Below, in pieces: positions 3-30,443 of a stretch of 41,543 bases of DNA. The position numbers and the translations under genes were made by a program. The first letter of the stretch is position 1. Every line of letters begins with the position of its first letter. The notes under the pieces were generated by a model. That model did no database searches. It was not told the DNA's origin and saw only the letters and a list, made by a program, of their open reading frames with translations. The stretch is from an uncultured Porphyromonadaceae bacterium (GTDB lineage: Bacteria > Bacteroidota > Bacteroidia > Bacteroidales > Muribaculaceae): assembly GCA_947175205.1 (NCBI GenBank), contig CAMWLS010000019.1, positions 1 to 41,543 on the forward strand, given 5' to 3'.

Positions 3-425
3 TTAACGCTGACACCACTTGTAGGTTGTGATGATGACAAAAATTCGATCAACTTAGAAAATGAATATTATAAAGACATCTATAAAGAAAATTTAGAAAA
101 TTTAAATAATAGTTTAAAAAAAGCAGATTCTCCAATTTTACATTTAATTAGAATTGCACATGATTTGCACACAAGCGATGATTATAATGATAAAGCGACC
201 TGTGAATTTACAATAACTGACTTTCAACAAACTATAAGACATGAATTGGAGTGTACAGACATTGATAGTATTAACTCTCGGAAAGACGATACTCTTATAA
301 AGGTATATAATACTTTCAAAACTCCAGATGGCTTTCACGAACTTCTTGACTGGACAAGATATTATATAAATACTTCTGGAGGCTGGGAAATTATTTGTAC
401 GACATTACCCGAAAGATTGTCATAA
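3..425 (+). CDS. Partial lipoprotein of unknown function (5' end outside window)
   Basis: The frame is open from the first bases of the window and begins LTLTPLVGCDDDKNS, which reads as the end of a type II signal peptide with lipobox LVGC followed by acidic residues. In Bacteroidota, acidic residues after the lipid-bearing cysteine are typical of surface-exported lipoproteins. The mature part is about 130 residues, rich in Asp, Asn and Lys, with a Trp/Tyr-rich end (GFHELLDWTRYY, GGWEIICTTLP). I do not recognise the family. The DNA is much more AT-rich than the rest of the window, suggesting recent acquisition. A shorter call starting at the TTG at 165 would cut off the lipobox. Only the first few residues of the signal peptide are missing. 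An immunity protein for a secreted toxin encoded upstream is possible but unproven. Confidence 0.65.
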   Translation, partial: LTLTPLVGCDDDKNSINLENEYYKDIYKENLENLNNSLKKADSPILHLIRIAHDLHTSDDYNDKATCEFTITDFQQTIRHELECTDIDSINSRKDDTLIKVYNTFKTPDGFHELLDWTRYYINTSGGWEIICTTLPERLS

Positions 426-480
426 AGAAAAACTAATATATATAAATGCGGCTATTTTTATTGATGTAATATCAAGACCT

Positions 481-714
481 ATGTATGAAAACCTTACCAA
501 TCCAATATCAAGGTTAGCGCCAAATAATGATAACAGATTGTGCAAAGATAAGCTGGCAGCTGATTTAGCAGTTTTGGGGGTTCAAATTCAAGCTGATGAA
601 TTTATTGACGCAATGGCAGCTGGCTCTACCACACTTATTGAAGGAAGTGTGTTGGCTATTGAATTAGTCACAATCTGGTTAGAATATGAAGCCTGTAATG
701 GGCGTTTTCATTAA
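481..714 (+). CDS. Small hypothetical protein, possibly the tail of a longer broken gene
   Basis: This encodes 77 residues from the ATG at 481. The same frame stays open upstream to a stop at 367-369, so about 37 more residues (including NAAIFIDVISRP) could be coding. That makes this either a short gene or the 3' remnant of a larger one. The C-terminal half (LAADLAVLGVQIQADEF, TTLIEGSVLAIELVTIWLEY) looks like amphipathic helices of a compact soluble domain. I recognise no family. It follows the lipoprotein by 55 bp and precedes the membrane protein by 19 bp on the same strand. The AT-rich start becomes more balanced toward the 3' end. There is no clear ribosome-binding site at 481, which is common in Bacteroidota and not evidence against the start. 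Confidence 0.45.
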   Translation: MYENLTNPISRLAPNNDNRLCKDKLAADLAVLGVQIQADEFIDAMAAGSTTLIEGSVLAIELVTIWLEYEACNGRFH

Positions 715-733
715 TTAACAGGAGGAAGGCAGT

Positions 734-1009
734 ATGAATGAGATTAAAAACCCATCTGTAAATAAATTGAGCTGGTTTCTGTTGCCGCTGTTTTTGGTTA
801 TACTCTATGATCTCATAACCAGGACCATACCGTTATGGAGCATTATTATCGGCAGCATTTCTTTGGTTCTGTTCCTGATAATTTTTACCGGTAATGCCGT
901 CCGGCAGAGATGCTATGCGCAGATGTTCAGGATATATGCCATTCTTGCTATGTTTGCAGCATTTATGGTGTACTCTCTCATATATCTGCCATCCAAGTTC
1001 CCGGCTTGA
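734..1009 (+). CDS. Small three-helix inner-membrane protein, unknown function
   Basis: This 91-residue protein has three predicted membrane segments: about 14-30 (WFLLPLFLVILYDLI), 34-52 (LWSIIIGSISLVLFLIIF) and 66-85 (FRIYAILAMFAAFMVYSLIY). They are separated by short charged turns including NAVRQRCYAQ. A strong purine-rich ribosome-binding site, AGGAGGAAGG at 720-729, lies directly upstream of the ATG and supports this start. It sits 19 bp after the preceding small gene, so the two are probably co-transcribed. There is no signal-peptide cleavage site and no motif that suggests a reaction. Small membrane proteins beside orphan lipoproteins often belong to toxin/immunity or phage-defence remnants, but nothing in this sequence proves that. 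Confidence 0.6.
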   Translation: MNEIKNPSVNKLSWFLLPLFLVILYDLITRTIPLWSIIIGSISLVLFLIIFTGNAVRQRCYAQMFRIYAILAMFAAFMVYSLIYLPSKFPA

Positions 1010-1020
1010 GATGACGCTAA

Positions 1021-1173
1021 GAGCCCGCTCCCCCAATATTTGATAAAAACAGGGTTTAAGGAGCGCAGTCTCATCTGAACGGTGTGCTGCCAAAAAGAAA
1101 GCCCGTTCCCCCATTAATTTATTCCGGGGAACGGGCTCAGACCATGTTTTTATCAAAAATTTGGGAACAGGCT
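1021..1173. repeat. Nested palindromic intergenic repeat (MITE/REP-like)
   Basis: Outer arms at 1021-1050 and 1145-1173 are imperfect inverted copies that share TTGATAAAAACA and a CCCnCTCCC/CCTGTTCCC block. They enclose the perfect hairpin at 1100-1137. The 12-mer CCCCAATATTTG at 1031-1042 recurs in reverse complement at 40621-40632, also beside GGGGAAC palindromes. I infer a dispersed non-coding repeat family. No transposase is visible. Confidence 0.6.
1100..1137. terminator. Hairpin between convergent genes, probable bidirectional terminator
   Basis: A perfect 12-bp stem, AGCCCGTTCCCC (1100-1111) with GGGGAACGGGCT (1126-1137), has a 14-nt AT-rich loop. It lies between the plus-strand membrane-protein gene and the end of the minus-strand aminotransferase gene, where terminators are expected. 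There is no clean U-run, so a role purely as part of the repeat is also possible. Confidence 0.5.
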
Positions 1174-1208
1174 TTAATAAATTAGAGGTAGCTCTGTATT
1201 ATCAGCTC

Positions 1209-2405
1209 TTATTTCAGGGCGGCGAGGGCGGCGCTTATGCGGCGCATGGCTTCGCGGAGGTTGTCATCTGAGGTGGCATAGCTCAGGCGGATGTAACCCG
1301 GTGTCCCGAAGGCAGCGCCGTCAACAGTGGCCACATGGCCTTCTTCCAGCAGGTACATGGCCAGGGCTCCGGAATCAGTGATTACACGCTCTCCAAAGTG
1401 CTTTCCTATGTACGCACTCACCTCCGGGAACAGATAAAAGGCACCCTGGGGCTCATTCACCACCAGACCCGGAATCTGACGGGCCATCTCCACCACCAGG
1501 TCACGGCGGCGGCGGAAAGCCTGACACATCTCAGCCACACACTCCTGAGGACCGTCATATGCGGCCTCAGCAGCCTTCTGTGCTATGGAAGAGGCTCCGG
1601 AGGTGTACTGTCCCTGAAGTTTGGTGACAGCCTTTGCCACGGCCACGGGAGCGGCACAGTAACCTATACGCCAGCCGGTCATGGCATACGCCTTGGAAAC
1701 GCCGTTTATCACCACGGTGCGTTCAGCTATCTCCGGGAATGAAGCCAGTGAGGTGAACTCTCCGGTATAAATGATATGCTCATAAATCTCATCAGCCAGC
1801 ACCATTACCTGCGGATGGCGTGCCAGCACATCCACCAGAGCCTGCAGCTCATCCCGGGTATAGACGCTGCCCGTGGGATTGGACGGCGAGCACAGCATAA
1901 CCATGCGCGTGCGCGGCGTGATGGCGCTCTCTAACTGGGCGGGAGTAATCTTGAAATCAGCCTCGATGGAAGTGGGCACGGCAACTCCTACACCCTCCGC
2001 CAGCTTCACCATCTCAAAGTAACTCACCCACGCCGGAACGGGAATCACCACCTCGTCACCGGGATTGACCGTGGCAAGAATCACATTGCACAGGGCCTGC
2101 TTGGCACCGTTTCCCACCACTATCTGCTCAGGAGTGTAGTCCAGCCCGTTCTCTGACTTAAGCTTGCCGCATATGGCCTTACGCAGACTCAGATAGCCGG
2201 GCACAGGGGGATAAAAGGTAAAATTCTCTTCTATAGCCTTCACGGCAGCATCCTTTATGTGTTGCGGAGTGCTGAAATCAGGCTCTCCCACAGAGAGGTT
2301 TATGACATCCACACCTGCGGCACGCAGCTCGCTGCTCTTCTGTGACATGGCCAGTGTCTGTGACGCGGCCAGATTCTTGATACGGTCTGAAATCTGTACT
2401 TCCAT
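1209..2405 (-). CDS. aspC: PLP-dependent aspartate aminotransferase (class I/II)
   Basis: This 398-residue cytosolic aminotransferase interconverts aspartate and 2-oxoglutarate with oxaloacetate and glutamate. Fold-type I landmarks are all visible: substrate-loop region NLSVGEPDF (36-44), YPPVPGYLSLR (65-75), cofactor-binding SPSNPTG with Asn176, ADEIYEHI with Asp205 and Tyr208, and the Schiff-base lysine Lys238 in GVSKAYAMTGWRIGY. The end contains the carboxylate-binding Arg in YIRLSYA. Length and motifs match the AspC/AatA subgroup I-gamma family common in Bacteroidota. Related specificities such as prephenate or aromatic amino acids cannot be excluded by eye. It is the last gene of a minus-strand run after pldA and the glycosidase-like gene (41 bp gap), and it ends in the repeat-rich convergent region. 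Confidence 0.9.
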   Translation of the reverse strand: MEVQISDRIKNLAASQTLAMSQKSSELRAAGVDVINLSVGEPDFSTPQHIKDAAVKAIEENFTFYPPVPGYLSLRKAICGKLKSENGLDYTPEQIVVGNGAKQALCNVILATVNPGDEVVIPVPAWVSYFEMVKLAEGVGVAVPTSIEADFKITPAQLESAITPRTRMVMLCSPSNPTGSVYTRDELQALVDVLARHPQVMVLADEIYEHIIYTGEFTSLASFPEIAERTVVINGVSKAYAMTGWRIGYCAAPVAVAKAVTKLQGQYTSGASSIAQKAAEAAYDGPQECVAEMCQAFRRRRDLVVEMARQIPGLVVNEPQGAFYLFPEVSAYIGKHFGERVITDSGALAMYLLEEGHVATVDGAAFGTPGYIRLSYATSDDNLREAMRRISAALAALK

Positions 2406-2446
2406 ATTGCTTGGTATTGAGGTGATTATACTCTTGGGGATTATGC

Positions 2447-4714
2447 TTATTCTCTTATTATCATGGCATCAACCAGGGCGTGATTGGTATCAATGTTCAT
2501 GTTGTTGTTCTCCGGCTCAAAGCTGATGGTGACTGTATGTTCACCGGGCTCCAGGAACACACTCAGTACATTGGTGCTGCCCCAGTCATACCAGTTGCCC
2601 GTTCCGCGGTGCGGCATCACTATGGTACCGGCCTTCTTACCGTCAACGCTTACGGTGCGTACGGCGCACTTGTTCTCAGTGTTCACGGGGCCGTTGCCGT
2701 TGGCATATATAAAACTGATGTACTTTTCTCCCGGAGTGTCAGTGCTGAATTTGATATCCACGGCGGGACTCCGGCGGTCAAGTTCCACAAAGCCGGCTCC
2801 GCTGTAGCCGCTTATGGCGCCGGTCAGGGGCTCATATGAAACTTCACCGGACTTCATTACTGTCACCTCCTCAGGTAACTGAATTACGGTGGTCTTGAGA
2901 TATTCCACAGGCTCTGAGGCAAATGACTCCACACCTGCCTCACTCACTCCGGTGACCTGATACTCACCCGGCTCAGTGAGCTCAAACGCGGTGCTGCGGG
3001 TCTGCGCCACCGGCTTGCCGTCACGGTACACGCGGTAGCCGCCTATGTATTCAATGGGGTTCCACCTGAGCACCGCGCCGTCAAGGCGTGTCAGCGGTGT
3101 CAGCGGAGCTTTCACATTCTCCGTCAGGTTCACCGCCACGGGTGCTATGGGTTTGTTATCCATCTGAATCACCACTGTCAGAGGCTTTCCTGACTTTGCA
3201 GCCTTGGCTGCCTGAGCCGGGGTTATAAGAGGACTCTGTTCCTTGCCGTTTACAGTGAAAGAGGCCACGGCTGAGCCGTAACCGTTCACTGTTATATCCA
3301 GCTTTGCTCCCCGGTAACTGAAATTTTCCAGAGTGCGGGACTCACCCAGTGCTTCAGGCACAAAAGGCTTGAACGCCAGACCCTTCTCAGTGAAGTCAAG
3401 CCCAAAGAGTATCTTATGCGTCAGCGCAATGTTGCCTGACAGGCACCACAGCATGTTGGAAGAGTTCAGCTCAGTGGCAATGTCTCCGTTATCCAGATTA
3501 AGGTTCTCCTTATTTGTGGCAAACAGCGCCGCCGGGCGGAACACAGAGCCTATACCCTGAAGCACACCCTGCTCATTTGCCGTCTTGGCGCTGGCGAGCG
3601 TCCACCATGATGCCACCCAGGGCCACAGCGCGTTATTGTGATACGCCGGCATGTCAGAAATCTGAGGAAAGAACACCGGAGGACCATACTTGGTCACAGG
3701 GGTGGAAGCGCTTACCTGCGCCTGCTTCTCAGCCGGAGTCACATCCCACATAATGCCCAGAGCTTCACCAAGGACATCCGTACGGGGCAGATTCATAAGA
3801 TGATTGCGCCCGTAGCGGTACATGTCATGCTGGCCGCGCTCTGCGTTCCACAGCATGCTGTCTATGGCCTTCTCCTGTTCCCTGGCGCGGCGCTCATATT
3901 CCCGTGCCTCATTCTTATATCCCAGGTCTGCGGCCATGCGGCTCATCAGTTCCATGGCTCGTGCATGCACCACAGAGGTACTCAGGGCCTCGCTGCGGTA
4001 GATGTCAGCGGTCTGCATCCACTTGGGGTAAGACTGCTCACGCCAGTCAATGAAAGAAGTCTCACCGTGTACAAGGCCGTCAGGAGCGTAAGCCACCTGC
4101 AGGTCATCCTCCAGAGAACGTTTTATGATGGGATAAATATATTCCAGCCAGCTGTGGTCACCGGTCACCAGATAAACCTCATAAGCAGCCACTGCCCAGA
4201 TGATGCGGTCAGTGCTCACAGGCCAGGCACCTCCTGAACCGGTGTCCTGAATAATGCGGCCCATGGGATCCACCTTCTTCATCAGCGAAATACGCGCTGC
4301 CTCAGGCTGCATGTAAGCCATGGACAGCAGAATGGAATAAGACACATCACGCGTCCACACTCCGGCCCATTCCTTGCCGGTGCGCAGCGTGGTGTCAGGC
4401 TCCACGGCGTTCACCATCTCATCCAGCGCCATGTTATAAACGGCAGTATGCAGCTTGTTAGGCGTCTTAAGGCGGGGATAGGATGATATGTCATTCTTCA
4501 GGTGCCACTCCTGCTCAACGGGCATAAAATAAGCAGGCTGGGCATGATAAGTGGAGATTATGGTGTTGCCGTCAGGAGCCGTGGCCATAAACTTTCCCTG
4601 AGTAATGGTGTCACCGTGCCAGCTGTAAGCGTCAGTGGACACTATCTGCCGGGCCGCACAGGGCGTTACCGCCGCTGCACCGGCAGCCATGAGTATGATG
4701 ATTTTACTGTTCAT
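2447..4714 (-). CDS. Secreted six-hairpin glycosidase-like protein with C-terminal Fn3- and CBM-like domains
   Basis: This encodes 755 residues with an N-terminal signal peptide (MNSKIIILMAAGAAAVTPCAA). Residues about 80-480 look like an (alpha/alpha)6 barrel of the GH37/GH63/GH78/GDE type. KEWAGVWTRDVSYS (114-127) resembles the conserved acid-bearing segment of glycogen-debranching-like and GH63-like enzymes, and GETSFIDWREQSYPKWM and YHNNALWPWVASWW are further conserved-looking blocks. Residues about 535-600 resemble an Fn3 domain (GGYRVYRDGKPV). Residues about 620-755 look like a carbohydrate-binding beta-sandwich (GTGNWYDWGSTN, EPGEHTVTISFEPE). It probably acts on an oligosaccharide in the periplasm or at the cell surface. 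The family number and substrate cannot be fixed by eye. It lies between pldA (52 bp upstream) and aspC (41 bp downstream), probably in one transcript, although no susC/susD partners are present. Confidence 0.75.
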   Translation of the reverse strand: MNSKIIILMAAGAAAVTPCAARQIVSTDAYSWHGDTITQGKFMATAPDGNTIISTYHAQPAYFMPVEQEWHLKNDISSYPRLKTPNKLHTAVYNMALDEMVNAVEPDTTLRTGKEWAGVWTRDVSYSILLSMAYMQPEAARISLMKKVDPMGRIIQDTGSGGAWPVSTDRIIWAVAAYEVYLVTGDHSWLEYIYPIIKRSLEDDLQVAYAPDGLVHGETSFIDWREQSYPKWMQTADIYRSEALSTSVVHARAMELMSRMAADLGYKNEAREYERRAREQEKAIDSMLWNAERGQHDMYRYGRNHLMNLPRTDVLGEALGIMWDVTPAEKQAQVSASTPVTKYGPPVFFPQISDMPAYHNNALWPWVASWWTLASAKTANEQGVLQGIGSVFRPAALFATNKENLNLDNGDIATELNSSNMLWCLSGNIALTHKILFGLDFTEKGLAFKPFVPEALGESRTLENFSYRGAKLDITVNGYGSAVASFTVNGKEQSPLITPAQAAKAAKSGKPLTVVIQMDNKPIAPVAVNLTENVKAPLTPLTRLDGAVLRWNPIEYIGGYRVYRDGKPVAQTRSTAFELTEPGEYQVTGVSEAGVESFASEPVEYLKTTVIQLPEEVTVMKSGEVSYEPLTGAISGYSGAGFVELDRRSPAVDIKFSTDTPGEKYISFIYANGNGPVNTENKCAVRTVSVDGKKAGTIVMPHRGTGNWYDWGSTNVLSVFLEPGEHTVTISFEPENNNMNIDTNHALVDAMIIRE

Positions 4715-5738: not shown

Positions 5739-6683
5739 ATGAAACAGAGCGCCACTGAAAATACACCACAACTTATGCTTAATCTGGAGCAGATGACACG
5801 GCTGGAAAACTATGCCTCTGAATTTGCGCGCATGGACAACAGTCTGGTGATAGCCCGCTCAGCCAACACCCTTGAGAGCAGCATTGCCGGTGAGCCGTTC
5901 AAACTTAACGGCCTGGCCATAATGCTGATAGAGAAAGGGACCCTGGAGATAGACCTTGATGACAACCGTTATACCGCTGAAGGGCCCTCTTTGCTGGTGC
6001 TGGACCCCGTGGCTACAGTGCGCCTGTCATCCCCCAAATGGGAGGACGTGGAGATATTCTCCCTCTTCTGTACCTCAGATTTCCTCAACGGCCTGAACGT
6101 GAATCTGTCAGCCCTGCATCTTCCGGATATTGCAGAGAAAGCTGCACGCACCCTGCCCCTTTCAGAGAGTGACACCCTCCTGCTGCAGTCTTACTTCCAG
6201 CTGCTGATGCGCGCCCTGCGCAGTTTCACCGGCACACCCATTGACCATCACATAGCATCCTCGCTGGTGGCCTCCGTGCTGTATCTGGTGGTACAGCTCC
6301 ACTATAAGTCACTGAATGTGGAGAGCATAGCCCGCCCCTCGGCCACAGGACCCCGCCCCAGACGCTCCAGCTACGTGCGTGACTTCCTGCGCCTGGTGCA
6401 TGTGGACTACGTGCGCCACCGTGACCTGGAATATTACGCCACCCGCCTGTGCATTTCACAGAAATACCTGTCAGTGCTGGTGAAAAACGCCACCGGCAAG
6501 ACTGCCTCACGCTGGATAGATGACTTTGTTATCATGGAGGCCAAGAACCTGCTCAGATACTCTGACAAAAACGTACAGCAGGTTGCCTATGCCCTGAACT
6601 TTGTAAACCAGAGTGCTTTTGGCAAATACTTCAAGCACCTCACAGGCATGTCCCCCTCTCAGTATCAGAAATCAGCAAAATAA
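5739..6683 (+). CDS. AraC-family transcriptional regulator
   Basis: This 314-residue DNA-binding regulator has an N-terminal cupin-like sensor region (about 40-110; GLAIMLIEKGTLEIDLDD, GPSLLVLDP). A helical linker leads to a C-terminal double helix-turn-helix (about 213-314). The AraC signature is clear: LEYYATRLCISQKYLSVLVKN for the first HTH, and VQQVAYALNFVNQSAFGKYFK then TGMSPSQYQ for the second. Family members usually activate nearby transport, stress or glycan genes. Its ligand is unknown. It is divergent from the pldA run and 49 bp upstream of the DUF4254/glycosyltransferase run, so either neighbour could be its target. It is intact and similar in base composition to its neighbours. 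Confidence 0.85.
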   Translation: MKQSATENTPQLMLNLEQMTRLENYASEFARMDNSLVIARSANTLESSIAGEPFKLNGLAIMLIEKGTLEIDLDDNRYTAEGPSLLVLDPVATVRLSSPKWEDVEIFSLFCTSDFLNGLNVNLSALHLPDIAEKAARTLPLSESDTLLLQSYFQLLMRALRSFTGTPIDHHIASSLVASVLYLVVQLHYKSLNVESIARPSATGPRPRRSSYVRDFLRLVHVDYVRHRDLEYYATRLCISQKYLSVLVKNATGKTASRWIDDFVIMEAKNLLRYSDKNVQQVAYALNFVNQSAFGKYFKHLTGMSPSQYQKSAK

Positions 6684-6732
6684 TAACATCCTCACATACA
6701 CACTACCCACGCATTAAAACCATCACAACACC

Positions 6733-7347
6733 ATGAGTTTCGCACAAGACTGCTTCAACGTGTTCAGCCGTGCAACAGCTGACTATCATATTGCTGACAA
6801 CGTGGACGTCAGCACCCCTAATCCTTATCAGGAAAACAAACTCGAGCACACACTGTATGCCAAGAACTACATTGACGCCGTACAGTGGCATCTGGAAGAC
6901 ATAATACGTGACCCCATGATTGACCCCGTGGCCGCACTGCAGCTCAAGAGACGCATAGACCGCAGCAACCAGGACCGTACTGACATGGTGGAACGCATTG
7001 ATGATTACTTCATGCAGCGTTACGCCGGAGTAAACGTACTCCCTGACGCCACCATAAACACGGAAACTCCCGCCTGGGCTCTGGACCGCCTCTCCATTCT
7101 GGCACTTAAAATATACCACATGCAGGCTGAGGCTGAGCGTCCTGATGCTGATGAGGCCCACCGCCGCCGCTGTGCCGCCAAGCTGGAAGTACTCCTGCAG
7201 CAGCGCTCTGACCTTATGGCCGCCATTGACCGCCTTATGGACGATATTGCCGCCGGACGAAAGTACATGAAACTGTACCGCCAGATGAAAATGTATAATG
7301 ACACGGACACTAACCCCGTGCTTTATGGTGCAGCAAAAGGAAAATAA
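6733..7347 (+). CDS. DUF4254 family protein
   Basis: This encodes a 204-residue, largely alpha-helical, charged cytosolic protein with no signal peptide or membrane segment. Recognisable stretches are LEHTLYAKNYIDAVQWHLED near 37-56, with a Trp and acidic cluster, and PADEAHRR-like helices further on. The family is Bacteroidota-specific, of unknown biochemical function, and typically lies directly before a GT9 glycosyltransferase, as here. The next gene overlaps its end by 23 bp if that gene starts at 7325, which implies translational coupling. From context I infer a role in envelope glycan or LPS-core assembly, perhaps as a partner of the GT9 enzyme. The family assignment is from memory of sequence and context, not a search. 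Confidence 0.75.
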   Translation: MSFAQDCFNVFSRATADYHIADNVDVSTPNPYQENKLEHTLYAKNYIDAVQWHLEDIIRDPMIDPVAALQLKRRIDRSNQDRTDMVERIDDYFMQRYAGVNVLPDATINTETPAWALDRLSILALKIYHMQAEAERPDADEAHRRRCAAKLEVLLQQRSDLMAAIDRLMDDIAAGRKYMKLYRQMKMYNDTDTNPVLYGAAKGK

Positions 7348-8404
7348 AAAAACACGCACCGTGGCTGTGGTACGCTTCTCCGCTCTGGGAGACGTGGCCA
7401 TGGCCATACCCGTACTTTACCGCGCCTGCAAGGCACATCCTGACACACAGTTCATCATGGTAACCGCCGGTGCCCGCCGGAAAATGTTTCTGAATCCCCC
7501 GCATAACCTCAGCATTTTACCCGTGGATGTCCACGCTTATCCCTGGAAAGGTCCTCTGGGTATGGTACGCCTTATGCGGCGGCTCAAGACAGAATTTGGT
7601 GTCACTGACCTGCTGGACATTCACAACGTCCTGCGTACCCGCATACTGCGCCTTACAGCACGCGCACTGGGCATTAAAGTGAGTACCCTCCACAAAGACC
7701 GCGCCGGCCGCCGGGCACTCACACGCCCCAAGAACAAGGTCATGCGCCCCCTGGAAAACTCCGCCGCACGCTACGCTGATGTGTTCCGCAGCGGCGGCTT
7801 TGAGGCGCAAGGGACCTTTGACGGCCTTTTCAGCGGACGCAGAACCGCACCGTGGCCTTTCCCAGGAGCCAAGCCGGAAATAAGAATAGGTATTGCGCCA
7901 TTTGCTGCCCATCAGGGAAAGATTTACCCCGCTGAACAGATACTCCGGGTGCTTCAGCTCATAGAACAGCAGTATCCTACGGCCACTGTTTACCTTTTTG
8001 GCGGCGGTGCCAGAGAGGAAGCCATATTCAGTCAGTGGCGTCTGCACCACCCCACAGCCGTTAGTGTCCCAGAACAGCTGCATGGCCTGGCAGATGAGCT
8101 GGCTCTGATGAACCACCTTGACGTCATGCTGACCATGGACAGCGGAAACATGCACCTGGCGGCTCTGGCTGGCACTCCGGTGGTGAGTATCTGGGGAGCC
8201 ACCCACCCTTACTGCGGTTTCACGCCGCTGAACACCGTAACTGATGACATAATACAGCAGCAGATGCCATGCCGTCCCTGCTCAGTGTACGGCAACAGAC
8301 CCTGCCTCCGTACTGACTACGCATGCCTCTCAGGAATTTCTCCTGAAAAGGTTATGGAACATCTCAAAAAGTATATCCACGCCCATGAGCAAGAAAAAAA
8401 ATAA
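7325..8404 (+). CDS. Glycosyltransferase family 9 (heptosyltransferase-like)
   Basis: This encodes 359 residues from the ATG at 7325. I chose this start over 7298 because the conserved beta-strand [19 protein letters not shown] follows shortly after it and the longer start would overlap DUF4254 more. GT9 enzymes transfer heptose or related sugars to the LPS inner core at the inner face of the inner membrane. The GT-B fold shows in the N-terminal Rossmann start (RFSALGDV), and in the C-terminal donor domain with [12 protein letters not shown] and the family hallmark [25 protein letters not shown] Cys-rich tail ([16 protein letters not shown]) resembles the late segment of other heptosyltransferases. 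It overlaps DUF4254 and ruvB (20 bp), so it lies inside a tight operon. The sugar specificity is unknown. Confidence 0.88.
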
Positions 8405-9449
8405 TGACGCGGCTGAACAGCTGCAACCTGATGACTTTGACATACGCAGCGCCGGAGGTGCCGCGGCTTCCGAGCGCGATATAGAGAAAGCTCTGCGCCC
8501 GGGGACCTTTGAGTCATTCAGCGGACAGGAGAAGATTGTGGAAAACCTGCGCATCTTTGTCCGCGCAGCTGTCATGCGCGGAGAGGCCCTGGACCACATC
8601 CTGCTTTTCGGCCCTCCGGGATTGGGAAAAACCACCCTTTCCGGTATTATAGCAAATGAACTGGGGGTGGGTCTTAAAATCACTTCCGGACCGGTGCTGG
8701 ACAAACCCGGTGACCTGGCCGGCATCCTCACCTCCCTGGAGGAGAATGATGTCCTGTTCATAGATGAGATTCACCGTCTCAGCCCCGTGGTGGAGGAGTA
8801 TCTTTATTCAGCCATGGAAGATTACCGGATAGATATAATGATAGACAAGGGTCCCGGAGCGCGCAGCGTACAGCTTTCCCTGAGCCCGTTCACCCTGGTG
8901 GGGGCCACCACACGCAGCGGCCTGCTCACCAGCCCCCTGAGGGCACGTTTCGGCATCAACTGTCATCTGGAATATTATGACCACCAGGTGCTACGCGGCA
9001 TCATAGAACGCTCAGCACGCCTGCTGCGCGTTCAGATAAGTCATGAGGCGGCCATGGAGATAGCTCTGCGCAGCCGCGGCACACCCCGTATTGCTAACGC
9101 CCTGCTCCGCCGCGTGCGTGATTTCGCTCAGGTAAAAGGCTCAGGTGCCATTGATACGGAAATTGCACGTTATGCCCTGGAGGCCCTGAACATTGACCGC
9201 TACGGCCTGGATGAGATTGATAACAAGCTCCTTAACACCATCATTACCAAATTCAAAGGCGGTCCGGTGGGACTCACCACCATTGCCACCGCTCTGGGTG
9301 AAGACCCCGGTACCATTGAGGAAGTATATGAGCCATATCTTATTAAGGAAGGGTTCATTAAACGCACCCCCAGAGGCCGCGAGGTCACTGAACTGGCTTA
9401 CAAACACCTGGGACGCCCGAGAATAGATGATTTCGGACTCTTCGGATAA
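8385..9449 (+). CDS. ruvB: Holliday junction branch-migration ATPase RuvB
   Basis: This 354-residue AAA+ motor forms hexamers that, with RuvA, drive branch migration of Holliday junctions during recombinational repair. Visible landmarks are an N-terminal [11 protein letters not shown], Walker A GPPGLGKT (76-83), Walker B LFIDEIH (124-130), sensor 1 GATTRSG (173-179), arginine-finger region SPLRARFG (183-190), and a C-terminal winged helix with [17 protein letters not shown]. Length is normal for RuvB. It starts inside the end of the GT9 gene and is followed after 24 bp by a flippase, so a DNA-repair gene is carried in a glycan operon. I recall this neighbourhood from other Bacteroidota, so it is probably ancestral rather than a new insertion. 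Confidence 0.97.
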
Positions 9450-9473
9450 AAAAGACATTTATCACCCCACCCC

Positions 9474-10961
9474 ATGGCAGGATTAACAAGTCTCTTTAAA
9501 GATACCGTGGTTTACGGCATCAGCTCCATCTTGGGACGCTTTCTGAACTGGTGCCTGGTGCCCCTGTACACTTACACCTTTGCCCCCGCGGAGAACGGTA
9601 TTATCACCATGATGTACGCCGTGGTGGCTTTCCTGATAGTGGCCCTGACATACGGAATGGAAACGGGCTTCTTCCGGTTTGCCAACCGCTGGCCGCAGCC
9701 CATGGCCGTGTACAGCACCGCACTTATCTCGCTTATGTGCACCTCCACGGCTTTTGTGCTGCTGGTGCTGTGTTTCCTGCAGCCGGTGACACTGTGGATG
9801 GGCTGCGCAGGACATCCTGAATATGTGATGATTATGGCTGTCTGTGTGGCCATGGACGCCTTTGTCTCGCTACCCTTTGCTTACCTCAGATACACCAAGC
9901 GCCCCATACGCTTTGCCACAGTGAAAATGATAAACATAGGCTTCAACATAGGCTTCAATCTCTTTTTCCTGTGTCTGTGCCCGCTGCTGGCTCATCACAT
10001 GCCATATACCGTCAACTGGTTCTATGACCCGCAGTTTGGCGTGGGCTATATATTCCTTGCCAACCTCCTGGCCACCTTCAGCATGTTCATTCTGCTGCTG
10101 CCTGAGCTGCGGGGGTTCCGCTGGACCTTTGACGGCGCCCTGCTGCGCCGCATGCTGCGTTACTCCGTGCCTCTGCTGGTGCTGGGACTGGCGGGAATCA
10201 TGAACAGCACCGTGGATAAAATCATTTACCGTTTTTTAGTGCCGGGCCCGGAAGGAGAGGCACAGTTAGGTATCTACGGCGCTTGCTTCAAGATTGCAGT
10301 GGTGATGGTGATGTTCACACAGGCTTTCCGCTTTGCTTACGAGCCTTTCATCTTTGCCCGCGCACGTGAGTGCAAAGACCCCGCCGCCAACAAGCGCACT
10401 TACAGTGACGCCATGAAGTACTCTTACCTGCTGTCTCTGTTCATATTCCTTACGGTGATGTATTATCTGAACATCATAAAATACTTTGTGGCCCCGGCTT
10501 ACTTTGCCGGTCTGGTGGTGGTGCCGGTGGTATTGGTGGCAGAGTTAGGTGCCGGTGTTTATTATAATCTCACAGTGTGGTATAAACTCACTGACCGCAC
10601 CCACTGGGGAATATGGTTCACGCTCATAGGTCTGGCCGTGACACTGGCCCTGAACATCATACTTGTACCACAGATAGGTTACATGGGCTGCGCCATTGCC
10701 GCCGCTGCAAGTGCCGGAGCCATGGTGCTGAGCTGTTACATGGTGGGGAGGCACTATTTCCCCATTGACTATCAGCTGCCCCGCCTGGGCGTCTACACCT
10801 TGGTGGCAGGAGCGCTGTACGTACTGGGGCTCTACATTCTGGTAACTGACAGCGAGTGGCTGAATTATGCCATACGCACCGGCCTGCTGCTGCTGTTCCT
10901 GATTTTTGCCCTGCGCCTTGAGCATTTCCCCTTACCTCACAGACGTCAACCGGCCGGATGA
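9474..10961 (+). CDS. Polysaccharide flippase-like membrane protein (MOP superfamily)
   Basis: This 495-residue integral membrane protein has about 12-14 hydrophobic helices and opens with MAGLTSLFKDTVVYGISSILGRFLNW, the usual start of Bacteroidota Wzx/RfbX-like 'lipopolysaccharide biosynthesis' proteins. It probably flips lipid-linked sugar intermediates across the inner membrane. Further family-like segments are PLYTYTFAPAENGIITMMYA, MLRYSVPLLVLGLAGIMNS and the repeated aromatic helices toward the C-terminus. There is no catalytic motif. It follows ruvB by 24 bp, and its last codons overlap the GT4 gene (ATGA at 10958-10961), so the flippase and glycosyltransferase are translationally coupled. 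The substrate (O-antigen, capsule or other glycan) is unknown. Confidence 0.85.
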   Translation: MAGLTSLFKDTVVYGISSILGRFLNWCLVPLYTYTFAPAENGIITMMYAVVAFLIVALTYGMETGFFRFANRWPQPMAVYSTALISLMCTSTAFVLLVLCFLQPVTLWMGCAGHPEYVMIMAVCVAMDAFVSLPFAYLRYTKRPIRFATVKMINIGFNIGFNLFFLCLCPLLAHHMPYTVNWFYDPQFGVGYIFLANLLATFSMFILLLPELRGFRWTFDGALLRRMLRYSVPLLVLGLAGIMNSTVDKIIYRFLVPGPEGEAQLGIYGACFKIAVVMVMFTQAFRFAYEPFIFARARECKDPAANKRTYSDAMKYSYLLSLFIFLTVMYYLNIIKYFVAPAYFAGLVVVPVVLVAELGAGVYYNLTVWYKLTDRTHWGIWFTLIGLAVTLALNIILVPQIGYMGCAIAAAASAGAMVLSCYMVGRHYFPIDYQLPRLGVYTLVAGALYVLGLYILVTDSEWLNYAIRTGLLLLFLIFALRLEHFPLPHRRQPAG

Positions 10962-21748: not shown

Positions 21749-21751
21749 CTG

Positions 21752-21823
21752 TACCCCGGAGCGGAATCGAACCGCTATCTAAAGTTTAGGAAACTTCTAT
21801 TCTATCCGTTGAACTACCAGGGC
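21752..21823 (-). tRNA. tRNA-Arg (anticodon CCT)
   Basis: On the minus strand the 72-nt sequence folds as a cloverleaf. Acceptor GCCCTGG pairs with CCGGGGT (G-U pairs included), D stem GTTC/GAAT, anticodon stem GAAGT/ACTTT around the loop TTCCTAA (anticodon CCT, reading AGG), T arm AGCGG-TTCGATT-CCGCT. CCA is not encoded. A consensus promoter lies upstream and a terminator immediately downstream. tRNA-Arg genes are frequent integration sites for mobile elements, but I see no duplicated 3' end in this window. Confidence 0.9.
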
Positions 21824-26184: not shown

Positions 26185-26625
26185 TCAAAAGAACTCTCTT
26201 ATTCTCCACCGGCTGGTCTGAACAGCATTTATTATAAACATACAGTTAACTTCTGCTATGTCTTCATATTTCTTTGCCACTGCGCGGTCACAGCCACCTG
26301 ACAGCCAGATACGGTTTATAGCCTCAGCTGCCGTGGCACGCCGTAAGTAAATACTAAGGGTATCAGAATTGGATCCGTCCGGCAAAATTGCGGTAAAATA
26401 CTGTGATTCCTCATCCATCACCTCACTCACTTTAAAATCCACCAGGCCGCCTAATTTCCCCATTATGTAAACAAAACTATCTGCCACCAGACGCCTCAGT
26501 AATATTTCATTCTCCTGACCCAAGATTCCCGGAACATTCTCTTTATTCCTGCCGCAAAGCTCACTCACAGCGCTCTCAGCCATAATCTCATTTATTATAT
26601 CATTAACATCAATCCTTGTTTCCAT
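26185..26625 (-). CDS. Hypothetical protein, last gene of the virion-like cassette
   Basis: This 146-residue protein has no recognised family, signal peptide or membrane segment. It opens METRIDVNDIINEIMAE and has a helical N-terminal half (ENEILLRRLVADSFVYIMGKLG). A beta-rich middle (VDFKVSEVMDEESQYFTAILPDG) is followed by LRRATAAEAINRIWLSGGCDRAV and a basic tail SRWRIREFF. An AGAGGA ribosome-binding site precedes the ATG. Together with the upstream 132-residue gene (41 bp gap), it appears to be transcribed from the promoter at 27145-27175 rather than from the capsid promoter. Its size and place after the portal-like gene are compatible with a head-tail completion protein, but that is inference only. 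Confidence 0.6.
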   Translation of the reverse strand: METRIDVNDIINEIMAESAVSELCGRNKENVPGILGQENEILLRRLVADSFVYIMGKLGGLVDFKVSEVMDEESQYFTAILPDGSNSDTLSIYLRRATAAEAINRIWLSGGCDRAVAKKYEDIAEVNCMFIINAVQTSRWRIREFF

Positions 26626-26666
26626 AGTATTCCTCTCTTCTTATTATATATTAAAAAATATGATAC

Positions 26667-27065
26667 CTAACAACTAATAACTAAATTAACTCTGCAGTAC
26701 TTCTTTATCAGATTCAGCGCCCGCAGTGGCTCTATGAAATAGCGTCCCGGATGCTGATATGCTAATACATAACTCAGCGCCGCACTCAAACTCAATCCCG
26801 GTCTCTGCTGCTGCCGGGCCTGAACCTTCTCCAGAAGCTCGGCCCAAAACATGTCACGTTCTGTTTCTCGCGGAACTGTATCCTTCTTACGCAATGATAA
26901 AAGCCGTTTATATGCATGCTCATAATCCACATAATACTCCCGCGGACCTCGCTTCAAGGCTTCAGTCACCACCTGACTCACACTTCCGTAATGTCCGCTT
27001 TCACTCAGTTGCACACATGTTTTCAGAAAACTCATGTTGCGCTCTTTGATAAAGGTCTTTTCCAT
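26667..27065 (-). CDS. Hypothetical protein with an internal duplicated motif
   Basis: This 132-residue soluble, basic and helical protein is of no recognised family. Two segments look like copies of one ~33-residue unit. Residues 28-58 contain SVSQVVTEALKRGPREYYVD then AYKRLLSL. Residues 91-122 contain LSLSAALSYVLAYQHPGRYF then ALNLIKKY. The shared pattern is S-hydrophobic-S, a helix, P, two aromatics, an acidic residue and a second helix. The last residues (NLVISC) are encoded by a heptad repeat also found in non-coding DNA at 21672-21695, so the natural C-terminus may have been replaced. The start has an AGAGGA ribosome-binding site; an in-frame ATG at residue 11 is an alternative. A strong promoter lies about 80 bp upstream. 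Confidence 0.6.
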   Translation of the reverse strand: MEKTFIKERNMSFLKTCVQLSESGHYGSVSQVVTEALKRGPREYYVDYEHAYKRLLSLRKKDTVPRETERDMFWAELLEKVQARQQQRPGLSLSAALSYVLAYQHPGRYFIEPLRALNLIKKYCRVNLVISC

Positions 27066-27144
27066 AATCCTCTTTTTATTTTATACTCTATAAAATTTCT
27101 TCCCCGATATTTATTTTAAATACTATTAAATACTTTTGTGTTGG

Positions 27145-27175
27145 CAAAGATATTTTTAAAAATTGAATTATGCAA
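27145..27175 (-). promoter_or_regulatory. Strong promoter for the two small cassette genes
   Basis: On the minus strand TTG (27173-27175, within CTTG), 20 bp, TATCTTTG (27145-27152). It lies in the AT-rich 140-bp gap after the portal-like gene and predicts a start near 27138 with a leader of about 70 nt. Confidence 0.65.
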
Positions 27176-27205
27176 GTAAATTATTGAATATATACAATAT
27201 TTATT

Positions 27206-28477
27206 TCACTTAATCTTGACCATCTTCCTCTTACGCTCATTTATAAAACTTCTGAAAGTCAGTAGAAGGTCACTTAGCGCAATGGTGGCATTACGTGTCT
27301 GCTGCTCATACATAGCCGCTCCCTGATTCATGCTCACCTTACCCGTCAGCGCCTCTGTCACACCGGAAATATCATCAAACATTTTCATCTGCAGTGTCAG
27401 CAGGCGGAAAGCGCCGTCAGCTCCGGCAGGAGTCACCACCTGCTGAGGAAGATACTGACCGCGGCCCGTGATGGGTATAACACCGTCAGTCTGCGCCCAT
27501 GCCTCACACACGCGGTCCCAGCCGTAATCTTTAGGCAACTGGTCCGTAGGAAAGAGAAGCACACCCTTGGCCGCTGAACTCACTATCCTGTCCATAACCG
27601 CTATAAGCCTGTTTATATACCTCTGCTGGTCTATCACATCCTCCACAAAACTGTGGACCTCCCCGTCAGTAAGAGGATAAAACTTTACCGTAAAGGGATG
27701 TTCCTCACACGGACTCTCTTCCTTAAGCACCGTTCCGTCCGGAGCCAGCCATCGGCACACCCACTGCATTACCACTTCGCCGCTCTCACGTTTTATGCTG
27801 GCCTCATGTTTCCACACCTCCACCACACGGCAGCGCCCCGCTGCGCCTCTGTAAAAATTCTCCTCGCGGCTCCCGCCTAATAGCGGGCTCCCCTCATCTG
27901 CACTGCAAAGACTCTTGTAAAGGTTACGCAGCCACTCCATTCTCCTAACTTCACGCTTACCCATGCTCTTGAGAAGCTGAGGCATAGACAAATCATGACA
28001 CTGGCCTATCAGTTCTATATCGCGTCCCAGCGGGTCCCGGTAGGCATTTACAAAAAACATGGGAATATTTACATTGCTCACCGCTGTAGCTCCCTTTTCA
28101 TCCGCACCGGGCAGCGCTCTCAGATACTGCACCGCGCCGCCTGATATGAGAAATTCCTCTAACATTCTGCAGTCCAGTTCAAATAAGGCCTCATCCGCTG
28201 CACTGTTTCCATAATACTTCTTTTCCTCATTATCAGCCCGGTATCTGCCCACCACAGTCTTCACCATGCGCCTAATCAGATTATTGGTGAAAGGAGGCCG
28301 CCCGTCTCTTGACACAAGATATTCCTCACGCACTGCACGGTTATTATGGTCGTAGACTATATCGCTCCACTGATCTCCGTATGTATATTTCTTATATCGC
28401 CTGCGCCGCTTTCTGAATTCAGCGCCTTCCATCCAGGTCCGGCACGCTGTCTGAAGCAGTTCTATATCCTTTTTCAT
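27206..28477 (-). CDS. Phage portal-like protein, probably C-terminally shortened
   Basis: This 423-residue protein resembles P22-type portal proteins, which form the dodecameric DNA-entry ring of the capsid. The family-like start is RKRRRRYKKYTYGDQWSDIV (22-41), then RPPFTNNLIRRMVKTVVGRYRADN (60-83), matching the usual 'GxQW' and 'NxIxxxVxxxxGxxR' pattern. The middle has an alpha/beta clip-like region. Late motifs are DVIDQQRYINRLIAVMDRIV and GAAMYEQQTRNATIALSDLL. The chain stops at INERKRKMVKIK, where relatives usually continue for a further ~100 or more residues of stem and crown, and AT-rich DNA with a new promoter follows. An AAAGGAGAAG ribosome-binding site precedes the ATG. It is downstream of the connector-like gene (41 bp). 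No terminase gene is present. Confidence 0.75.
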   Translation of the reverse strand: MKKDIELLQTACRTWMEGAEFRKRRRRYKKYTYGDQWSDIVYDHNNRAVREEYLVSRDGRPPFTNNLIRRMVKTVVGRYRADNEEKKYYGNSAADEALFELDCRMLEEFLISGGAVQYLRALPGADEKGATAVSNVNIPMFFVNAYRDPLGRDIELIGQCHDLSMPQLLKSMGKREVRRMEWLRNLYKSLCSADEGSPLLGGSREENFYRGAAGRCRVVEVWKHEASIKRESGEVVMQWVCRWLAPDGTVLKEESPCEEHPFTVKFYPLTDGEVHSFVEDVIDQQRYINRLIAVMDRIVSSAAKGVLLFPTDQLPKDYGWDRVCEAWAQTDGVIPITGRGQYLPQQVVTPAGADGAFRLLTLQMKMFDDISGVTEALTGKVSMNQGAAMYEQQTRNATIALSDLLLTFRSFINERKRKMVKIK

Positions 28478-28518
28478 CTTCTTCTCCTTTTTTCATCTTC
28501 ATTTTCCACCTTTACGCT

Positions 28519-29052
28519 CTAAAATACATTTATATCCGCAAGTACACCGTCATCCACTCGGTAAAGCTCCGGGCCCGTATCTGTGGTTACCATAACCTCC
28601 TCAGGAATTCCAAAATCAGGGTTGGCGGCCGGAAAACACAGATAATAATTCTGGAAACTCAGCACTCGCGGATGCAGACTGTCAGCCCGGCAGTAAGGAT
28701 TGCCTTCTCGTGCAAGCAGTGCCGTGGTACCCTCCTCAGGAGCTGCCGCCCGTTTCCATCCCGGAAGACGGCAGCTTATCAGCTTCCGGGTCATTAGCGG
28801 CACACTGAGCTTGGTACACCCGCCGGAGTAGGGCTCTGTATGACAACTGGCATACACATCTTCAACATCCGTTACCCTTTGGTCTCCGCGGTCCAGCAGT
28901 TCCAGATACCAGCGCCGCATACGTTGTTCCAGAAATTGGTTCACATCCATTCCATCATAAACCTCCACATTGCAGCTCTCCTCTGCAGTCTCAAATCCCG
29001 CGCGCTTACGCCATATCTCCAGCATCTCACTGCGGCTATAGTCCCTTATCAT
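28519..29052 (-). CDS. Hypothetical protein between capsid- and portal-like genes (connector-like by position)
   Basis: This 177-residue soluble protein has no recognised domain. It begins MIRDYSRSEMLEIWRKRAGF, with helices to about residue 65 (DVNQFLEQRMRRWYLELLDRG). A beta-rich second half follows, with SVPLMTRKLISCRLPGWKRA, a segment VLSFQNYYLCFPAANPDFGIP and ending EVMVTTDTGPELYRVDDG. It lies between the capsid-like gene (113 bp upstream) and the portal-like gene (41 bp downstream) on the same strand. Such a place suits a head-tail adaptor or scaffold partner, but this is positional inference. Cysteines (26, 69, 79, 93, 118, 138) are more frequent than in the neighbours. Confidence 0.55.
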   Translation of the reverse strand: MIRDYSRSEMLEIWRKRAGFETAEESCNVEVYDGMDVNQFLEQRMRRWYLELLDRGDQRVTDVEDVYASCHTEPYSGGCTKLSVPLMTRKLISCRLPGWKRAAAPEEGTTALLAREGNPYCRADSLHPRVLSFQNYYLCFPAANPDFGIPEEVMVTTDTGPELYRVDDGVLADINVF

Positions 29053-29078
29053 GATATGTAATTTTTTAATCCCTATTC

Positions 29079-29160
29079 TTAATAACTAATACTCATACTC
29101 AGTCACATATCCCACCCACTTACCCATCAACACTCATCACTTAATCACTCATCACTAACA
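29079..29160. repeat. Short direct repeats in the capsid-connector gap
   Basis: CACTCATCACT occurs at 29131-29141 and 29146-29156, preceded by degenerate ACTCA units and an AATAACTAAT heptad fragment (29081-29090). The 113-bp gap otherwise holds nothing recognisable. Confidence 0.4.
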
Positions 29161-29165
29161 CTTGA

Positions 29166-30443
29166 CTAAATTTCCAGGCCACAAACCCTCAGGTGAGCGT
29201 CAGGATATCTCAGTACCAGACAGGATGCCTCAGTAAGCACCACCGCGTCAGTATTACGCTGACCGCTCTTGCGTAGGTCCAGAGTCTCTATCTGGAAAGG
29301 TATATGAACATACTTGGTTACATACTCAGGGTCTATAATCATACCGTCTTTCTCATGTCCGCACTGGTCAAATATCTCTGAATGGACCACATACAGACTT
29401 CCAAAATTGCTGCGGATTTCCTTGAACTCTATACCCCACTTGCACATGGTATCCCCGGCACTGATAACCTTGGTGTAATTAATCTTGCTCAGAGATTCTA
29501 TCAGCTTGGTACCACCCACCAGAATCTTATGCTTGGAACCGGCATTCTTGGTGAACGCCGTGCCGCACAGCTCTATCAGGTCCTTTTCATCCGTTGACGT
29601 CAGCGGATACTCATGTTTGCGTGTAGTCTGGGTCCAGATACCGCCGGTCAGATAAACAGGCTCTTTCTTGTTATAATCATAAACCTTGGCCGGAATTCCA
29701 AAAAGGAAATTCTTTTCCATACCCATACGCATGTCTATTATCGCAGCCTCTTCCTGGTCTGAAAAACTCCAGTCAGCCTCTTTCTCCGCTATCTTGGTAA
29801 GCGTGCTCTCCTCCACCTGCATTTTGAAAATCTGACAGTAATTGCCTGACTTACGCGGCAGCGCCGCAAACTGCGGACTCTGTACATCCAGTTCCGTGGC
29901 TGCACGGCCCATACGCACCACCTTGGTACCCGCGCTGGTAGCCGGAATACGCATCACTGGCTCACCATCCTCCTCATCCTTGATTCCGTTAACCGGGCAT
30001 ATGGTAACCTTTCCGTTATTCTCCGCCTCAAGAACATAACCCACCAGAGGTACCTCATCCTTTCCGTGCTTAACCATCAGATCAGGGAACAGCACAGTCT
30101 CACTGACATCAAAAATGTTATTATCCTCCGTTCGCATGGCTATACACGGGGTATCTCCGCGATACTCGGCATACTCATCCATGGCTGACGTCAGCACAGT
30201 CTCTGTCTTCTTGGTATCCACACTGTAATACTCCACGCGCATGGCTCCCGCGTGGCGGCTCGTGCCGCAGCGGCTAAGCTGCTCTATGGGCGTGGACATG
30301 GGCCGCACCTTTACTATCCTTTCATCTATACTGTTCAACAGCAGCCCTTCAGCATGCTCATTTAACAGTTCTGTGCTCACTGCGCCGCCTGATACCTGGG
30401 TTCCGCCGGCTGCACCGGTACTGATTTTTACATTGTTTTCCAT
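29166..30443 (-). CDS. Phage major capsid protein-like (SU10/HK97-fold type)
   Basis: This 425-residue protein has no signal peptide or membrane segment. The first ~60 residues are low-complexity then helical (GAAGGTQVSGGAVSTELLNE, NSIDERIVKVRPMSTPIEQL), as in SU10-type capsid proteins. The middle has RMGRAATELDVQSPQFAALP and EADWSFSDQEEAAIIDMRMGMEKNFLFG. The C-terminal half carries GGIWTQTTRKHEYPL, DLIELCGTAFTKNAGSKHKILVGG and SNFGSLYVVHSEIFDQCG, a pattern typical of the HK97-fold axial domain of this family. It should self-assemble into a shell. No protease or scaffold gene is adjacent. It is the first gene of the cassette, with a -7 element (30551-30558) 107 bp upstream. The assignment rests on pattern and on the portal-like neighbour. 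Confidence 0.7.
   Translation of the reverse strand: MENNVKISTGAAGGTQVSGGAVSTELLNEHAEGLLLNSIDERIVKVRPMSTPIEQLSRCGTSRHAGAMRVEYYSVDTKKTETVLTSAMDEYAEYRGDTPCIAMRTEDNNIFDVSETVLFPDLMVKHGKDEVPLVGYVLEAENNGKVTICPVNGIKDEEDGEPVMRIPATSAGTKVVRMGRAATELDVQSPQFAALPRKSGNYCQIFKMQVEESTLTKIAEKEADWSFSDQEEAAIIDMRMGMEKNFLFGIPAKVYDYNKKEPVYLTGGIWTQTTRKHEYPLTSTDEKDLIELCGTAFTKNAGSKHKILVGGTKLIESLSKINYTKVISAGDTMCKWGIEFKEIRSNFGSLYVVHSEIFDQCGHEKDGMIIDPEYVTKYVHIPFQIETLDLRKSGQRNTDAVVLTEASCLVLRYPDAHLRVCGLEI

Follow-up and report, generated by a model that had tools for sequence, protein, structure and literature searches.

Gene transfer agents (GTAs) are described, in the consulted sections of a report on FpGTA of Faecalibacterium, as dispersed operons without self-replication (PMC12946183), and the same sections mention GTA activity in Oscillospiraceae and Ruminococcaceae as well as lateral transduction in Bacteroides. 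FpGTA itself belongs to a gut bacterium, is podovirus-like and includes TerS, TerL, portal, scaffold and major capsid protein (MCP) genes at more than one locus (PMC12946183). RcGTA of Rhodobacter is a domesticated prophage that is kept by its host and has genes at several loci (PMC11409702, PMC7947584), and PBSX of Bacillus subtilis is a domesticated prophage packaging random host DNA (PMC7667829); these features, as given in the parts of the sources available to us, are the ones shared with the genes considered here. We analysed a 41,543-nucleotide stretch of DNA (hereafter the window; contig CAMWLS010000019.1 of assembly GCA_947175205.1) from an uncultured Porphyromonadaceae bacterium placed by GTDB in the Muribaculaceae, which carries a cassette of capsid, portal and smaller phage-related genes. 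With a probability of roughly 0.6, we propose that this cassette is part of an ancient, scattered, podovirus-type GTA-like packaging system.

The cassette consists of five open reading frames (ORFs) on the minus strand (30443-26185), in the order capsid, a 177-amino-acid (aa) gene, portal and two small genes, with successive intergenic gaps of 113, 41, 140 and 41 bp. Both the coordinates and the capsid-first order agree with a first-pass annotation of the window, as do the capsid and portal identities, which are supported by Pfam and PHROG and, for the portal, additionally by Foldseek comparison of its AlphaFold model. The 425-aa MCP (29166..30443, minus strand) is of the SU10/HK97 type, matching Pfam SU10_MCP (E 5.1e-48), phrog_26635 (E 8.7e-77) and the major head protein family phrog_1328 (E 6.6e-8), and the profile of its family matches the major capsid protein in PDB 9in6 (E 3e-10). 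The 423-aa portal protein (27206..28477, minus strand) matches Pfam P22_portal (E 5.5e-20) and the portal family phrog_156 (E 3.6e-30). Its model (predicted local distance difference test, pLDDT, 76) gave 79 matches to solved structures at E <=0.001 (best E 2.2e-13), the best 50 of which are portals or portal-containing phage complexes; portals of KHP30, Pan3, GP4, crAss001, T7, SU10 and P22 are among the matches.

The first-pass annotation also described the cassette as lacking a terminase. As far as tested this stands for the window, where none was recognised among 11 scanned proteins (the five of the cassette and six neighbours, a subset of the window's ORFs). It cannot be extended to the organism, because the same genome encodes TerL on another contig. 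This single TerL (G000:C49:4714-6294; a 657-aa open frame) was found with a TerL query from a related viral contig (L033; phrog_2). Across 31 aligned domesticated and phage sequences, the residues of what we take to be the motor and nuclease motifs are invariant or show at most one exception per site, and the catalytic motifs are intact. Four other genes were scanned on the 16.8-kb contig, three of them with host Pfam domains (GH57, MscS channel and signal peptidase) and one without a domain. Directly upstream of terL lies a gene for an 843-aa protein, X843, for which neither Pfam nor PHROG gave a match when the sequence from the window's genome was used. At family level, X843 aligns across 764 columns with phage proteins that match phrog_32516 (probability 100, E 3.7e-45), and in a Foldseek search with an 866-aa homologue the best phage matches were tail proteins of SU10, cyanophage A4, Pa223, VP1 and P22. 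A sequence search of X843 against solved structures returned nothing credible, and we call it no more than tail-like because the phage tail matches stand among unrelated beta-propellers. Where scanned, the cassette and TerL each lie amid host genes. No integrase or replication gene was found in the scanned genes around the two (a selection of ORFs at these loci; PolA is the host's own). An intact prophage would unite terminase, head, tail, lysis and recombinase genes in one contiguous block; no such block was seen, cassette and TerL being on different contigs.

The distribution of these genes was assessed in 196 relatives, 117 of which belong to the window's family (f1). An MCP homologue occurs in 101 of the 117 family genomes; 98 matches are strong, and the three weaker ones (G015, G077 and G114) have E values of 1.7e-8 to 1.4e-5. 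The 177-aa gene was found in 90 and X843 in 75 family genomes, while portal (105) and TerL (106) reach counts that are upper values for domesticated genes, because some matches are prophage copies; for TerL these include at least G004, G075, G077, G109 and G114. A strong MCP match and a TerL match coincide in 91 of 117 genomes, TerL being the prophage copy in three of them (G004, G075 and G109). The MCPs of the family are 46-62% identical to that of the window. The genes are nearly always open frames, in about 100 species, with a single in-frame stop in single copies of MCP (G032), portal (G070), TerL (G067) and X843 (G034, G045 and G062). One genome carries two MCP-177-portal cassettes with identical scores (G019:C10 and G019:C58), perhaps a duplication or an assembly double. 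Two genomes of 4.1-4.5 Mb with the same genus code (G006:C155, G013:C32) are without the family MCP and show a different arrangement, in which about 8 kb hold TerL, a portal frame of 555-579 aa and what resembles a scaffold remnant.

Outside the family, MCP, portal and TerL occur together in five other genomes of the order, one each in f22, f28, f60 and f68 and one (G135, f20) in which they belong to a prophage. Among 295 genomes across the order, TerL was detected at E 1e-20 in 22 (f1, f22, f28, f60, f68, f88, f109 and the f20 prophage). MCP and portal matches were present in 18 of 18 genomes, namely 17 from six sister families and G102 of the window's own family, the portal of G379 being a fragment. 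Further, a scan of one genome per species yielded 347 MCP-encoding loci, and the best 80 of these, ranked by likeness to a sister-family MCP, bear titles that include Muribaculaceae, Barnesiella, Coprobacter, Ca. Gallibacteroides and Ca. Caccoplasma.

The genes follow their hosts. The nearest relative belongs to the same genus for 69 of 76 MCP, 45 of 55 TerL and 28 of 31 portal sequences, and distances correlate between MCP and TerL (r 0.58) and between MCP and portal (r 0.71), with none of 2000 permutations as high in either case. On both the MCP and the TerL tree the number of genus changes is 24, the minimum possible, compared with means of 53.2 (MCP) and 49.9 (TerL) after shuffling, when none of 200 trials was as low as observed; genera that do not form single groups by themselves are g1 and g14 for MCP and g5, g8 and g24 for TerL. 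Ratios of nonsynonymous to synonymous substitution rates (dN/dS) were 0.066-0.132 for MCP, 0.09-0.175 for TerL, 0.124-0.194 for portal, 0.16-0.44 for the 177-aa gene and about 0.25 for X843, from at most eight pairs per gene (of 36, 11, 5, 14 and 2) with defined dS. These values are rough, since synonymous sites are almost saturated and only pairs with a defined dS were kept. Taken as they are, the sequences indicate that MCP, TerL and portal are under purifying selection and inherited along host genera.

These results bear on the two interpretations offered by the first-pass annotation, a decayed prophage or a domesticated shell-forming module. Slow decay of one ancient prophage, with open frames surviving by chance, could account for the missing or shortened parts (portal C-terminus, scaffold) and for real losses in single genomes, such as G031 and the copies with single in-frame stops. 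It is nevertheless strongly disfavoured by the open frames in about 100 species, the parallel, genus-sorted trees and the purifying selection on MCP, TerL and portal (dN/dS about 0.07-0.19), and we consider it very improbable. Domestication, the other half of the proposal, is retained, and it appears nearly certain to us that the gene set has been domesticated for some use; shell-forming is too narrow a term, since TerL and the TerS-like, adaptor-like and tail-like genes have been kept as well. The idea of a one-off or recently mobile element was rejected, as neighbouring genes differ between the genera compared, while the gene trees follow genera.

The same genes are arranged differently in phages and in these bacteria. 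TerL was present in the fetched portal flank in 73 of 80 phage contigs (the top-ranking 80 of 392 by portal), with a median gap of 397 bp. Among 80 named MCP loci of bacteria (the top-ranking 80 of 347), whose flanks extended to 8 kb at most, none had TerL and five contained a portal; the comparison is between sets chosen on different genes, with contig ends cutting some loci in both. Within the family, MCP and TerL lie on one contig at least 14 kb apart in eight of the 91 genomes with both. The portal and the 177-aa gene can also be apart from MCP, for example both in G070 and G086 and the portal in G068. Genomes of one to three contigs give actual distances. In G102, MCP and TerL are separated by 2.5 Mb of contig, or by about 0.75 Mb the other way if the contig is circular, and in G405 the distances from MCP are 31 kb to TerL and about 245 kb to portal. 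In the single contig of G372, MCP and TerL are 32 kb apart, and a stretch of about 49 kb, which is within the capacity of a large head, covers these two and the portal.

In sister families the genes form islands. A capsid island (scaffold, MCP, a 131-aa gene, in some cases a 208-aa gene, and tail) lies beside fumarase in seven of eight fetched MCP loci; a full-length portal is 2.7-8.8 kb from suf genes in five of eight portal loci, and an X gene adjoins the portal in six of these eight. The islands are separated by host genes, among them those for lysyl- and alanyl-tRNA synthetase, phosphofructokinase and Suf proteins. Of the 80 named loci, 15 (five of six in Barnesiella) have fumarase no more than 5 kb from MCP, and it is near none of the 24 named loci labelled Muribaculaceae without genus (23 of which have at least 3.5 kb upstream). 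It was also absent from all 81 MCP stretches of the window's family, a weak result, as many are short and just 9 of 78 loci have at least 5 kb on both sides. Most plausibly, host genes came to break up the site of an ancestral prophage, and its pieces were then scattered further in the window's family.

The portal of the window is without the C-terminal part of phage portals, roughly 130 profile positions, and this shortening is shared. Of 58 family portals examined, 24 were set aside because the fetched sequence stops within them, and 32 of the remaining 34 stop at position 521-527 of the 655-position profile. The two exceptions end at 480 (G070, with a TAG inside the portal) and 377 (G031, with a frameshift). 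Portals of sister families are full-length (four of four reach position 624-652), and phage portals have 627-682 aa, with one of 567 aa. Using domain names that we assume to apply, the model comprises a stem helix (277-302), a clip-like part (303-350), a second stem helix (354-370), a tunnel-loop region and a long helix (388-422), after which the protein ends; the missing part is probably the crown. An early idea that the portal lacks the clip was dropped, as the model retains stem and clip-like elements. A common end point of this kind might be expected of a dominant-negative protein, and full-length related prophages do exist in some genomes of the same family, so that the altered portal, the capsid and the terminase could serve to poison the assembly of related temperate phages, by which this group is indeed infected. 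The catalytic residues of TerL are kept, however, and conservation extends in parallel to several genes at separate sites, beyond the needs of a decoy, which makes such interference improbable.

The remaining cassette genes are less conspicuous. The 177-aa protein (28519..29052, minus strand) is connector/adaptor-like, being a homologue of a gene of about 210 aa downstream of MCP in phages (phrog_22135). Neither Pfam nor PHROG matched the protein of the window; a longer homologue in the family matches phrog_22135 (E 2.4e-4), profile-profile comparison of the family with the phage family gives a probability of 98.7 (E 4e-16), and a sequence search of the family against solved structures found nothing. 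The label adaptor-like is given by position, as PHROG assigns phrog_22135 no function. The 132-aa gene (26667..27065, minus strand) is a homologue of phrog_27246; the protein's own PHROG match is weak (E 0.017), profile-profile comparison of its family gives a probability of 99.05 (E 2e-18), and the family includes 125-172-aa genes near TerL in most related prophages, a position which suggests TerS. The last gene (146 aa; 26185..26625, minus strand), which follows the TerS-like one, is fast-evolving and of no assignable role, with no Pfam match and PHROG matches at chance level only. A gene of 142-164 aa follows the TerS-like gene in seven relatives and in the window, among the 17 genomes with a recognised TerS-like gene, in some of which the stretch ended before the next gene; homology is mostly not established, phmmer matches to these counterparts being weak (best E 0.001).

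Upstream of MCP, a short scaffold-like ORF, whose end resembles the end of the sister-family scaffold, is present in 54 of 75 family loci; controls gave 0 of 58 upstream of TerL, 1 of 36 upstream of portal, 0 of 26 upstream of X843 and 0 of 61 upstream of the 177-aa gene, all among loci with at least 150 bases upstream. The full-length scaffold query matched in 22 of the 196 genomes, the window's genome not among them. A candidate promoter or regulator motif shared upstream of MCP was rejected, the enriched k-mer being the coding end of this short ORF.

Several relatives carry MCPs with a hydrophobic, signal- or membrane-like N-terminus. It was observed in sister families, several genera of the window's family and related prophages (L046, L049, L050, L052, L033, L032, L042, L044, L069 and L071), in some cases with LSGC, presumably a lipobox-like motif, and in none of 28 MCPs of the window's own genus. 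Such a segment would suit an encapsulin-like compartment for storage or enzymes, made of capsid alone with portal and terminase as passengers, and the HK97-type shell protein is indeed the most conserved piece by sequence. The segment is also found in phage relatives, though, no cargo enzyme was noticed beside the capsid gene in the window, and portal and TerL, the latter with its catalytic residues, are conserved nearly as widely as the capsid. We therefore give the compartment very little credence.

Retention of TerL with intact motifs, together with TerS-like, adaptor-like and tail-like genes, argues for DNA packaging rather than an empty shell. The set kept, with a short scaffold in most relatives, covers the needs of a short-tailed DNA-packaging particle, and its loci are dispersed, which leads us to the GTA-like reading. 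As in a GTA, the head and packaging genes (MCP, portal, TerS-like, TerL, adaptor-like and tail-like) are phage-derived and resident, are inherited vertically under purifying selection, share host neighbourhoods in sister families and are spread over loci. With loci so dispersed, it is improbable that all of the genes end up in one head; the particle could therefore serve the host without being able to copy itself. In the mechanism we envisage, a packaging machine was domesticated in a Bacteroidales clade that includes Muribaculaceae, Barnesiella and Coprobacter and passed on by vertical descent. The separate loci would be expressed together, and the capsid protein would form a head on the portal, helped in most relatives by the shortened scaffold. 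TerS and TerL would thread host DNA in and then cut it, and the 177-aa adaptor-like and approximately 843-aa tail-like proteins would close a short-tailed particle that may be released and transfer its DNA.

A number of observations weigh against this reading. The system is known so far as a set of genes, its particle, DNA content and transfer being proposed. Both portal and scaffold are shortened in the family, no scaffold-like ORF was found beside the window's MCP, and no shared motif was found upstream of MCP and X843, the two genes searched. Losses are partial, with seven genomes having MCP without TerL and 15 having TerL without a strong MCP match, some of these assemblies being incomplete; G007, G024, G026 and G044 have TerL and X843 and no MCP, portal or 177-aa gene, and G031, which is 99% complete, has a frameshifted portal (L034, 10167-11464), no TerL match and a 469-aa frame as its only X843. 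Scattering is not absolute, as 10 kb or less separates MCP and TerL in six of the 91 family genomes with both (G001, with TerL as a fragment, and G018, G067, G069, G089 and G096), and in 77 of the 91 the two are on different contigs of a draft assembly, which do not give their true distance. Portal and TerL distances agree less well than those involving MCP (r 0.44, and 0.32 within the family; none of 2000 permutations as high), and the dN/dS values carry the roughness already described. X843 evolves fast, with about 20-38% identity among family matches, the fold of its 866-aa homologue is poorly predicted (pLDDT 52) and the fold matches are weak and mixed with unrelated beta-propellers. Finally, one tail-like protein was recognised, and no lysis or receptor-binding gene was identified, neither having been searched for.

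Some of these points would equally fit a domesticated particle that packages DNA without transferring it, either a PBSX-like killing particle or a head put to some other use by the host. Such a particle would call for the same genes, the portal C-terminus is altered in the family, and no receptor-binding or DNA-delivery gene was identified (no search was aimed at receptor genes). A killing particle normally requires a conserved tail and lysis module, and the single tail-like gene found here is fast-evolving; this alternative seems doubtful to us. We thus favour the GTA-like packaging system, and put at about even odds the fuller statement that this is a working Bacteroidota GTA that predates the divergence of at least seven families, with a shortened portal and with even capsid, portal and terminase in separate loci of one or a few genes among housekeeping genes.

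Prophages of the same kind occur in several family genomes. Those at L054-L061, in family genomes and G135, have, next to their head genes, giant open frames with lengths of about 2,800 to 5,800 aa. In the searched collection, the only phage records with an MCP match at E 1e-5 were the Bacteroides phages BS-TP4, BKO1-TP3 and BF1-TP2 (PQ571277, PQ571269 and PQ571263), whose MCPs are 35-37% identical to that of the window; their portals share 47-88% identity with the one encoded by a related prophage (L062). Unlike the system described here, these phages have a compact head module in a 64-68 kb genome and a full-length portal (BS-TP4 and BF1-TP2 regions). Spread by present-day phages was rejected as an explanation, with MCP identities of 35-37% to the named phages versus 46-62% inside the family. 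In BS-TP4, a gene annotated as 'tail spike protein' (L335:20340-22436) coincides in position with TerL, and its own structural note suggests a terminase. An IMG/VR contig (L032) is a mirror-image duplicate, one set of genes being present twice (298-3815 and 6292-9809), probably through an assembly artefact. The cassette on it, with a 478-aa portal, resembles the bacterial one and not that of phages.

In the window, the cassette differs little from its surroundings in base composition, roughly as claimed at first (GC 44-49% in the cassette, in 2-kb steps, versus 42-57% window-wide). Its flanks had been described as host genes, which Pfam supports for PolA, NadA, an ABC transporter and FtsX; two supposed DUF4836-like genes have no Pfam match. 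A tRNA-Arg (cct) is located downstream of polA (21751-21823), away from the cassette.

If DNA is packaged, a major group of gut bacteria would have a built-in means of gene exchange that prophage finders seeking clusters would tend to miss, and Muribaculaceae and Barnesiella in the guts of mammals could be exchanging DNA unnoticed by this route. Further, the sister families keep intermediate steps (the islands beside fumarase and suf, and a full-length portal), so that one can trace how a prophage came apart and became a machine of its host. In mouse-gut virus-like particles, Bacteroidetes are the largest contig class and about a quarter of patterns are unexplained, according to one study (PMC7667829); as a guess, the present system might account for some of the host-DNA coverage in such particles.

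We found no description of such a scattered set in Bacteroidota in the open-access literature, parts of which were available to us, and absence in print is not thereby proven; on our best reading, this is the first GTA-like system in Bacteroidota as far as literature searches show. PBSX differs from it in being a gene cluster with bacteriocin-like action instead of DNA transfer (PMC7667829). RcGTA has a 17-gene head-tail cluster and is siphovirus-like (PMC11409702), whereas the relatives of the present genes are of the podovirus type, and, prophages aside, no head-tail cluster like that of RcGTA was noted in the family of the window. FpGTA resides in a host of a different phylum, and its likeness is one of description, not of sequence comparison. 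Its particles have been shown to hold about 8.4-9 kb of DNA, while the Bacteroidota system is a matter of genes, and its head and packaging genes are united in one 10.5-kb operon (PMC12946183), whereas here MCP, portal and TerL lie apart.

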